The notes beneath the pieces were generated by a model. That model was not told the DNA's origin. It was given only the letters and a program-made list of their open reading frames with translations, and ran no database searches. Source: an uncultured bacterium (GTDB lineage: Bacteria > Cyanobacteriota > Vampirovibrionia > Gastranaerophilales > Gastranaerophilaceae). From it: DNA of 64,000 nucleotides. Where the stretch lies: positions 62,001 to 126,000 of the forward strand of contig CASDPF010000002.1 of assembly GCA_949282215.1 (NCBI GenBank), read 5' to 3'. Every line of letters begins with the position of its first letter. Position 1 is the first letter of the stretch. The translations under genes were made by a program, and so were the position numbers. Shown piece after piece: positions 13,160 through 60,173 of the stretch.

Positions 13160-14084
13160 ATGAAAACACTTGGTATGACTAAATCTTACACTGGGGGGGG
13201 GGGGCAACTCAAAATATAAAAAGCCACTAGAGAACATTTTCACAAATAAATGCATTTTATTTAAAAAACTAATTAAATCTTTTTTCATTAATACTCATAC
13301 CTGCATCTTAAAATCATCAAATGCATTTACGCTTGCCGAAGTACTTATTACACTTGGTATAATAGGTGTTGTAGCTGCCATGACGCTACCTGCATTAGTT
13401 CAAAACTATCAAAAAATGGTATTAAAAAACCAGTTCAAAAAAGCGTACGCAACTTTTTACAACGGGATAAAAGCTGCACAAGGTAATCTTGGATATCCTG
13501 TAGGATGTTTTTATTGGTCTGGCGGGCAAATCTGTAAAGAAGTATGCATAAACAGAGATCCCACATATAACAGCTGCACTGCTTGGGAATGTGAAGACGG
13601 CTCCCCACTTCCTGCAAATCAAAACGGATTAAGAACTGATTGTGCTGCATTTGAAGAAGAATTATTTACAAAGGTACTAAAAGTAGTAAAATTCTGTGAA
13701 AAAAATGCATTAAGCAAGGGTTGTATAACTGAAAAATATAAAGGAACCGATAAAGTTCAAGAACAACAAAATCCTGATTCAGAATATCCGCCAAATCCTG
13801 CAAGCAACTTTAGTGATACTAATATTAAAAATAAGCAATCAAGCTGGGTCTTAGCAGATGGAACTGTTATTATTAAATATGGGACATACAAATCTCAATC
13901 TTTTCCGATATTTGCAGTAGATATTAACGGACATAAAGGGCCTAATAAATGGGGATATGATCTTTTTGGATTTCAAATTATGGGTGACAGCATAAACGGA
14001 GTCACAAAACTAAACGGATATAACACTGTTGTTGAAACAGGAGGAACATCATCTTCTAAAATGATTCAAGAAATGTTTAAATAA
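13160..14084 (+). CDS. Prepilin-like protein, phase-variable; out of frame (OFF) at G12
   Basis: The only start codon with a ribosome site (AAAGGAG, 7 nt) is the ATG at 13160, which reads MKTLGMTKSYT into the G-tract at 13193-13204. With G12 the frame hits TAG at 13229. With G11 it would continue without a stop through KKLIKSFFINTHTCILKSSNA into FTLAEVLITLGIIGVVAAM. That would give a prepilin with a 55-residue leader. In the pilin frame there is no ATG, GTG or TTG between the tract and the ATG at 13380, which lies inside the hydrophobic helix. The mature part has Glu5, cysteines, and a C-terminal ADGT...VDINGHKGPNKWGYDLF block shared with the paralogs. It is probably exported and assembled by type IV pilus or type II-like machinery. 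A sequencing error of one G cannot be excluded. Confidence 0.75.
13193..13204 (+). repeat. G12 homopolymer, candidate phase-variation tract
   Basis: Twelve consecutive G in an AT-rich region, 33 nt after the start codon of the pilin gene. G11 joins the start codon to the pilin frame; G12, as read here, does not. Runs of this length are classic slipped-strand mispairing sites. Confidence 0.85.
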
Positions 14085-48520: not shown

Positions 48521-48621
48521 CCTCCGTTTTTATACTATTTTTCATTTTAACATTTTTCGCACCAAAAATCACCGTGTCGATTGGCACGGTTTTTAATAAA
48601 ATTAATTCTTTCAGTCGGAGG
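48521..48621 (-). promoter_or_regulatory. Anti-Shine-Dalgarno/Shine-Dalgarno pair in pilin leader (48.6 kb)
   Basis: CCTCCG at 48616-48621 (minus strand) is the exact complement of the pilin ribosome site CGGAGG at 48521-48526. The first lies 40 nt after the G-tract, in a block also conserved at 59987. Pairing would hide the ribosome site; translation through the element could free it. Confidence 0.4.
48571..48590. repeat. CCGTG...CACGG hairpin near poly-G pilin
   Basis: ACCGTG and CACGGT form a 6-bp stem with an 8-nt loop in the pilin leader. The 59946 locus has the same palindrome, and 13109 has a one-armed version. Confidence 0.6.
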
Positions 48622-48649
48622 ACTAAGCCTGAAATGCTGCTATATCCTT

Positions 48650-48727
48650 TTAGGAAGCAGCCCCCCCCCCCGAAGTGGTTGTTAATAGTGAATTATAAGG
48701 TTTAACAAACAAAATATCAGTATTCAT
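48650..48727 (-). CDS. Upstream leader ORF containing G11
   Basis: ATG at 48727 reads MNTDILFVKPYNSLLTTTS into the G11 run and stops at TAA, giving 25 residues. With G12 or G9 the frame would stay open through SSISGLVLRLKE and into the pilin. The predicted transcription start falls at about this ATG, so initiation would be leaderless or nearly so; this is the weak point of the call. The equivalent ORF at 60025 has a good ribosome site. Confidence 0.4.
   Translation of the reverse strand: MNTDILFVKPYNSLLTTTSGGGAAS
48661..48671 (-). repeat. G11 homopolymer (C11 on plus strand) in pilin leader
   Basis: Eleven G on the pilin sense strand, in the context TTCG(11)CT that is shared with the tract at 60036. 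It is a candidate slipped-strand site that decides the frame of the upstream ORF. Confidence 0.8.
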
Positions 48728-59157: not shown

Positions 59158-59227
59158 ACAATTCCTCTATAATTATTATAACGAAAATTTTCTAAAAATG
59201 TTCGTTTTTATAAGATAGAAAATATTT

Positions 59228-59890
59228 TTACCACCAAGGATAATCTTTTTTGAACTCAAAATTATCATACAAAATCAATAATGAACCACAGTTAAGAGTA
59301 TTTGCTTTACACAATTGCAGGGCTTTATCTCTATTAACTGCATCAATCATACCAGCGGGGCCAAAATATTTTCTGTTTCCCAAATATAAATTACGCTCTT
59401 TGATTTCTTCACAAACATGAAAATAAAAAATATCACGACCTCTTTCATTTGGTTTTTTATCTCCATTAGCATCATATAGAAAGCTCATGCACCCGCCATT
59501 CCAAATACTCATTGAAGAACCATCCGATAAATAGACTTTTAATCGCCCTTCACCATCTTCAGTTGATTTTTCAGTCCTTACTGTTTTGATAAAAGGGGCA
59601 TAATACTTATCCCAATAACGCTTCATTTCTTCATAATTTTTAGTACTTTGCATATCAGGATCATCATCTTTTAAATTATCAGACCTTGACCAATTTTCAA
59701 TATCGCCATTGACAGTTTGAGACATAAGAATAGCCTGAGACATCGCACTATAAAACTTTTTTAAACTAACTGAAATTTCTTTTTTTTGCTGCTTTTGAAT
59801 AAGAGCAGGTAAAGTCATAGCAGCGACTATTCCGATAACTCCTAATGTGATCAATACCTCAGCTAAGGTAAAAGCATTTTTCTTTTTCAT
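59228..59890 (-). CDS. Prepilin-type protein with poly-G leader region
   Basis: From the ATG at 59890 (GGAGG 4-5 nt upstream) the protein is 220 residues: MKKKNA, then FTLAEVLITLGVIGIVAAMTLPALI with Glu5. VYLSDGSSMSIW and FLYDANGDKKPNERGRDIFYFHV are the shared C-terminal blocks, with cysteines at CMSF, HVCEE, LCKANTLNC. The 5' region has the promoter at 60112-60140, a short ORF with a G11 tract and a CCTCCGATTA element fully complementary to its ribosome-site region. An ATG at 59944 extends the frame but lacks a ribosome site. Confidence 0.84.
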   Translation of the reverse strand: MKKKNAFTLAEVLITLGVIGIVAAMTLPALIQKQQKKEISVSLKKFYSAMSQAILMSQTVNGDIENWSRSDNLKDDDPDMQSTKNYEEMKRYWDKYYAPFIKTVRTEKSTEDGEGRLKVYLSDGSSMSIWNGGCMSFLYDANGDKKPNERGRDIFYFHVCEEIKERNLYLGNRKYFGPAGMIDAVNRDKALQLCKANTLNCGSLLILYDNFEFKKDYPWW

Positions 59891-59894
59891 AAGT

Positions 59895-59996
59895 CCTCCG
59901 ATTATATTTTTACTGTACTTTTCAAAAAATCTGCATAACAACATTCCGTGACAAATGGCACGGAAATATTCTCAGCTTGTTTCGGTTAATCGGAGG
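59895..59996 (-). promoter_or_regulatory. Anti-Shine-Dalgarno/Shine-Dalgarno pair in pilin leader (60.0 kb)
   Basis: CCTCCGATTA at 59987-59996 (minus strand) is a perfect 10-nt complement of TAATCGGAGG at 59895-59904, which contains the pilin ribosome site. The loop between is 82 nt. The upstream element lies 40 nt after the G-tract, the same distance as in the 48.6-kb paralog. Confidence 0.5.
59946..59963. repeat. CCGTG...CACGG hairpin near poly-G pilin
   Basis: CCGTG and CACGG form a stem with loop ACAAATGG on the plus strand. It corresponds to 48571-48590 and, in part, to 13109-13121 (CCGTGCCAAATGG). Confidence 0.6.
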
Positions 59997-60024
59997 TCTA
60001 AGGCGGAAATGCTTATCTTAACTG

Positions 60025-60075
60025 CTAGTTGGTAGCCCCCCCCCCCGAAATCATCACTAGTAAAGCATTTTGCAT
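60025..60075 (-). CDS. Upstream leader ORF containing G11
   Basis: ATG at 60075 has AGGAG 9 nt upstream and reads MQNALLVMIS into the G11 run, then GGGATN and TAG: 16 residues. With G12 or G9 it would continue through ISISALDLRLTE to TGA at 59972, crossing the element complementary to the pilin ribosome site. The G10 frame also stops early. The open frame matches the 48.6-kb ORF (SIS-x-L-x-LRL-x-E) with synonymous differences, which suggests that it is translated. Confidence 0.5.
   Translation of the reverse strand: MQNALLVMISGGGATN
60036..60046 (-). repeat. G11 homopolymer (C11 on plus strand) in pilin leader
   Basis: Eleven G on the sense strand inside the upstream ORF, context TTCG(11)CT as at 48661. 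Confidence 0.8.
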
Positions 60076-60111
60076 AATATCAAGCTCCTTAAAATTTTAA
60101 ATACATTAATA

Positions 60112-60140
60112 ATTATAAGTTATTTTCTTGTAATTTTCAA
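60112..60140 (-). promoter_or_regulatory. Promoter of the poly-G leader/pilin transcript
   Basis: TTGAAA, 17-nt spacer, TATAAT on the minus strand, about 37 nt upstream of the leader ORF start. Confidence 0.7.
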
Positions 60141-60173
60141 GCCTGAATAAATCATTTATGCTAATATCTAATT

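Follow-up and report, generated by a model that had tools for sequence, protein, structure and literature searches.

The leader located at 60.0 kb of the window (the whole stretch of 64,000 nucleotides analysed here) reads, from its sequence and that of its homologs, as an attenuator that would control the translation of a type IV pilin gene by phase variation. About 60 such leaders are present in this genome, and we assign this reading a probability of roughly 0.6. A promoter-like site and a strong ribosome site would drive a short leader ORF, presumably translated by ribosomes, through a tract of eleven G residues (G11). In the G11 register these ribosomes would stop within 8-20 nt, the downstream RNA would stay free, and a CCTCC element would pair with the ribosome site of the pilin, keeping pilin translation OFF. 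Slippage to G12 or G9 (G10 in some copies) would yield a longer leader ORF, whose ribosomes would cover CCTCC and reach or cross a conserved hairpin, freeing the pilin site and turning translation ON. Under such control, the cell would keep a large and mostly silent pilin repertoire, rare members of which would be switched on at random.

The anatomy of the locus (Table 1) agrees largely with the original prediction, according to which a short ORF with a good ribosome site enters the G11 tract and stops upstream of an element showing perfect 10-nt complementarity to the pilin ribosome-site region; all of these features are present. By translation, the leader of this locus stops at +11 from the tract with G11, early again (+18) with G10, and at +64 with G12 and G9. 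The last two registers read across the element as proposed, but their stop does not lie directly behind it, the TGA being 12 nt downstream. Among mononucleotide shuffles, 0.17% contain a 10-nt match between leader and ribosome-site region, and dinucleotide shuffles fold less well than the region by 2.7 SD (z = -2.74). In the modelled fold, the additional pairing of AAGCATTT with AAATGCTT may carry the masking helix over the pilin start codon. No register at this locus joins the leader frame to the pilin stop-free, the long register running into the TGA at 59974-59972. Because 62 copies in the genome are laid out alike, the layout at 60.0 kb is not the product of chance at a single locus. A search of the region against Rfam 15 gave no match at gathering score and only weak chance matches at a relaxed threshold, and an Rfam riboswitch or other known RNA was rejected on this ground.

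Table 1. Features of the 60.0-kb locus and of two further poly-G loci in the window.
Feature	Position	Strand	Basis and remarks
-35-like TTGAAA and -10-like TATAAT	60140-60135, 60117-60112	(-)	promoter-like; 17-nt spacer; sequence
Leader ORF ribosome site AAGGAG	60085..60090	(-)	sequence; AAGGAGG-type site in nearly all copies
Leader ORF in G11 register, MQNALLVMISGGGATN	60025..60075	(-)	ATG 60075-60073, TAG 60027-60025; translation
G11 tract of the leader	60036..60046	(-)	sequence
AAGCATTT	60007..60014	(-)	complementary to pilin codons AAATGCTT; MFE of the 60.0-kb locus
Anti-ribosome-site element CCTCCGATTA	59987..59996	(-)	+40 from the tract; predicted pairing with the pilin ribosome site
TGA closing the leader ORF in G12/G9 register	59972..59974	(-)	+64 from the tract
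Conserved hairpin CCGTGCCATTTGTCACGG	59946..59963	(-)	between the element and the pilin ribosome site
Pilin ribosome site TAATCGGAGG	59895..59904	(-)	complementary to CCTCCGATTA over all 10 nt
Type IV pilin-like protein, 220 aa	59228..59890	(-)	PF07963 N_methyl and TIGR02532, both above cut-off
Second class B copy	48572..48671	(-)	G11 48661-48671, CCTCC 48617-48621, hairpin 48572-48589
Pilin of the second class B copy	ATG 48515, ORF end 47799	(-)	sequence
Class A G12 tract	13193..13204	(+)	stop-to-stop frame 13179-14084; pilin without own start; assembled length out of frame, only G11 in frame

The source genome (G000; 2.19 Mb in 45 contigs), that of a gut bacterium, belongs to the Gastranaerophilales, cyanobacteria that do not photosynthesise, near Scatousia, and the MFS gene neighbouring the locus has its best relatives in MAGs of Candidatus Gastranaerophilales and Candidatus Scatousia. 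The genome holds 92 poly-G tracts of at least eight residues; among the 89 unique ones, 68 are G11, and 81 are followed by a pilin motif within 200 nt. Its type IV pilin repertoire is extreme, with at least 159 pilin-like matches. Two classes of tract were distinguished. The class A tracts (19 in this genome) lie within the pilin's own N-terminal coding sequence, whereas class B, counted as 62 copies whose pilin start is complete, places the tract in a distinct leader ORF upstream of a pilin equipped with its own ribosome site and ATG. The class B consensus runs from a promoter (-10-like hexamer in 59 of the 62 copies, -35/-10 pair in 45) through AAGGAGG, ATGCAAAAA...ATAGATAGAATTTC, G11, about 39 nt, CCTCCG, roughly 20-30 nt, the hairpin CCGTGCCAnnnGACACGG, about 55 nt and CGGAGG to the pilin ATG, with an MQK..IDRIS-like start of the leader ORF in most copies. 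At the second class B copy of the window (48.6 kb), the G12 register runs on into the pilin frame with no stop. As a general mechanism, a long leader-pilin fusion was rejected, since in 59 of the 62 copies the stretch from the tract to the pilin is not open in the pilin frame.

The class A genes bear on which state is the silent one. At their assembled length, 18 of the 19 in the source genome are out of frame (P=0.005 under random registers), and the same holds for 18 of 20 class A-type genes in two genomes of another genus. This suggests that the usual tract length corresponds to OFF in this class. By analogy, the usual length of class B, at which the leader stops early, is probably the OFF state as well. 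The ATG...ATTTC-G11 start of class B leaders is common to three class A genes (L057, L125 and L131), suggesting that one class derived from the other. Across the family, poly-G tracts of at least nine residues occur in 99 of 117 genomes, and the family-wide search with the class B leader model was strong only in the source genus, while all poly-G pilins sampled in G048 and G083, both from another genus, belong to class A, the in-frame type. Class B may thus be a recent elaboration of class A, a direction that we infer from these distributions. A genome from another genus of the family (G116, L228-L231) carries poly-G in repeat-rich sequence with no nearby pilin motif, and phase variation there may extend beyond pilins.

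The dependence of the leader stop on tract length recurs throughout class B. With G11, the stop lies at +11 in nearly all copies and at +14 to +20 in some divergent ones; in the leaders checked by hand it falls at +8 to +20, with the exceptions of a degenerate copy without the CCTCC element (L073) and a copy with a deletion after the tract (L139). Nearly all class B copies stop at +18 or further with G10, and at +64, +94 or beyond with G12/G9. At least one neighbouring tract length gives a long ORF in the leaders checked by hand, usually G12/G9, the long phase being G10/G13 in seven divergent copies (L065, L086, L128, L249, L288, L300 and L321). A G12 copy (L120) lacks one T ahead of its tract and thereby stays in the G11 register; L193 has an interrupted tract, GGGGGAGGGGG, by which it is frozen in the G11 register. 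An early G11 stop together with a long neighbouring phase arises in random sequence of the same composition at a rate of 23% per lineage; the recurrence of the combination over divergent lineages is therefore notable, with the caveat that these lineages are related and not fully independent.

The conservation of the CCTCC element was examined in 95 leaders pooled from the source genome, a congeneric genome with at least 35 class B leaders (G003 = G140, CALVBU01, BRZ_P bin23), Scatousia excrementigallinarum, whose copies are very divergent (G002 = G141, DVIU01), and G007. The region from +1 to +39 falls into 8 clusters at 70% identity across these leaders, and CCTCC stands at +40 (39-nt offset) in 90 of the 95, in four genomes. 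Among the most divergent copies of the source genome, CCTCC is the best-conserved block. Tract-free pilins with a ribosome site lack both CCTCC (0/9) and the hairpin (0/9), these nine control genes being obtained by a wider start-codon rule (six by a narrower one), whereas CCTCC and the hairpin accompany 33/33 and 31/33 of the pilins with a tract. Folded from the tract end, 55 of 58 leaders show a predicted pairing of the pilin ribosome site with the element at P>0.5 (mean 0.94); with a free G tract in the fold this number drops to 47 of 58, as poly-G competes for CCTCC (10 of 58 folds).

Opening of the element raises the predicted access to the ribosome site. In thermodynamic models without kinetics or proteins, the mean unpaired probability of this site is 0.04 with ribosomes covering the short ORF and 0.56 with the long ORF covered as far as +64; the corresponding values at the 60.0-kb locus are 0.00 and 0.63. 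A single ribosome waiting at the +94 stop gives a predicted accessibility of just 0.14, so that ribosomes would have to cross the element repeatedly for the model to work. As for covariation, cognate pairs of ribosome site and anti-ribosome-site element are no better than shuffled ones (permutation, P=0.67; P=0.22 for nine divergent copies), a comparison with little power because the CCTCC/GGAGG core is nearly invariant. Beside this core, G-C is replaced by A-U in two copies (L249 and L300), and the pairing of leader positions +9 to +38 with pilin codons 2-16 gives a weak signal for cognate over shuffled pairs (P=0.045; combined P=0.195). The cognate comparison, put forward originally as a refuting condition, thus speaks neither for nor against the pairing. 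The switch logic of the original prediction is strongly supported by its anatomy, which is found in the 62 paralogs, the congeneric leaders and the very divergent Scatousia excrementigallinarum copies, while the covariation expected of it is weak.

The hairpin downstream of CCTCC lies at +73. Its motif occurs 63 times in the forward and 58 times in the reverse orientation in the genome (mostly the same near-palindromic sites) and not once for the reversed control, and the sites checked among the matches listed are all in pilin leaders. This confinement among the listed sites checked, together with a poor T run, led us to reject a generic terminator hairpin. A conserved hairpin directly after the tract was also discarded, since single copies fold in differing registers and RNAalifold lent no support. 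The +73 hairpin probably contributes to the masking fold; where a T run follows it, premature transcription termination may come in addition. Two Scatousia excrementigallinarum leaders (L298 and L302) have the hairpin and a T run without CCTCC, which makes mixed control plausible. The G10 register of both is open into the pilin, and they are possible intermediates between class A and class B. In the source genus, the hairpin (59946-59963 and its homologs) carries an unpaired C-A or C-U step near the loop, replaced by A-U in some Scatousia copies; this unpaired step could be a protein site.

The hairpin also raises the alternative of transcription attenuation. In S. gallolyticus pil1, a leader ORF contains GCAGA repeats, whose number determines where the leader stops with respect to a terminator and thereby the level of pilus expression (Danne et al., 2014; PMC3894217). 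Transposed to the class B leaders, the CCGTG...CACGG hairpin would be a premature terminator, ribosomes on the long leader ORF would permit read-through and CCTCC would be secondary. The geometry is suggestive, as the long-phase stops lie 9 nt before the hairpin (+64 vs +73) or just after it (+94), and the long leaders of pil1 stop inside the terminator or 4 bp ahead of it (PMC3894217). Moreover, the stem is kept through paired changes in the Scatousia excrementigallinarum copies (TCGTG/CACGA in L296), and the hairpin persists in the two leaders devoid of CCTCC. However, the stem is short, its T run begins 3 nt past it, and 23 of 59 copies, the 60.0-kb one included, have no run of at least four T within the next 10 nt, whereas T5 directly abuts the stem in the terminator-like hairpins found elsewhere in the window. 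As the fixed CCTCC at +40 would also be left unexplained, we consider termination unlikely as the principal mechanism. A Rho-type polarity, in which the early stop leaves untranslated RNA and transcription ends before the pilin, the pairing being incidental, would be compatible with the roughly 135 nt separating the G11 stop from the pilin ATG; it needs no CCTCC, yet both the position and the sequence of CCTCC are kept, and we regard this explanation as very improbable.

Two further readings dispense with a genetic switch or with regulation altogether. RNA polymerase or ribosome slippage on G11 could give each cell some long leader, G11 being a fixed setting. G11 is indeed more frequent in class B (56/62) than in class A (10/19; Fisher P=8e-4), and among reciprocal-best orthologs between two genomes it is kept in 21 of 23 pairs despite 6-18% flank divergence, the two others differing as G11 vs G12. 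Such constancy exceeds what a fast switch would lead one to expect and makes slippage at expression conceivable, although these are assembly consensuses, several of them MAGs, which may hide mixtures of minority lengths. Nevertheless, G10, G12 and G13 are present in assemblies, and a poly-G of this length is a classic hypermutable repeat, so that a fixed G11 seems improbable to us. The leader might instead be a passenger, inherited through recent duplication of a pilin cassette and without regulatory role. A close relative, whose neighbouring protein is 98% identical, cleanly lacks the promoter-leader-pilin unit of the 60.0-kb locus (59204-60145, 942 bp): at its syntenic site (L141), bases 3969 and 3970 abut. 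Leader and pilin thus come and go as one unit, and most copies are similar. Against this, copies less than 70% alike in +1 to +39 retain the spacing, CCTCC, an early stop with G11 and an alternative register with a long ORF, leaving the passenger explanation a very small likelihood.

We therefore retain the translational attenuator as the preferred reading. In its widest form, it would be a dedicated poly-G-gated device, evolved by a genus of gut Gastranaerophilales and copied before dozens of pilins, in which slippage by a single base unmasks one pilin at a time, and the first phase-variable system at genome scale to act by leader-ORF unmasking of ribosome sites; we put this forward tentatively, at somewhat less than even odds.

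Several known systems share parts of this logic. In Campylobacter and Neisseria, poly-G/poly-C phase variation takes place inside coding regions. The G tracts described here are likewise homopolymeric, expected to slip and associated with a surface protein repertoire, and the 19 class A pilins are of this same type, but the class B tract lies in a separate leader ORF, followed by a pilin with its own start and ribosome site. In ermC-type attenuators, the position of the ribosome on a leader ORF decides the masking of a downstream ribosome site. Class B masking would depend on the leader ribosome in the same manner, although the input would be the length of a DNA tract instead of a stalling drug or amino acid. 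A close parallel is found in the Pil1/Pil3 pili of S. gallolyticus, where the length of a leader repeat moves a stop codon upstream of a pilus gene; a short leader gives low pilus expression, a long leader reaching an RNA structure gives high expression, and most cells are low (PMC3894217). The 60.0-kb leader matches the pil1 layout, with its G11 stop ahead of the element and hairpin and the G12/G9 stops at +64 or +94. In contrast to the GCAGA pentamers and the demonstrated intrinsic terminator of Pil1/Pil3, the leaders described here have poly-G and probable ribosome-site masking, and the 60.0-kb hairpin has no T run. Furthermore, Pil1/Pil3 comprise two operons of sortase pili in a Firmicute, as opposed to about 60 leaders of type IV pilins in a cyanobacterial lineage. 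The original prediction, which knew of no leader-ORF attenuator controlled in this way by poly-G length, must therefore be qualified, since pil1 gates its pilus operon by the length of a leader repeat (PMC3894217); it stands insofar as this repeat is not poly-G. Phase-variable pilin leaders in Gastranaerophilales were not found in the open literature, an absence that is no proof. The pil1 system shares the switch logic, and the new features are the poly-G tract, the probable ribosome-site masking, the copy number and the lineage.

If true, this reading would mean that phase variation of leader ORFs is not confined to two streptococcal pilus operons but also governs, genome-wide, the pilins of an uncultured gut lineage, where its readout, ribosome-site masking, would differ from the streptococcal case. 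With about 100 natural variants, the compact RNA switch would also lend itself to studies of how ribosome position brings about attenuation, and surface variation of these gut bacteria would become testable.
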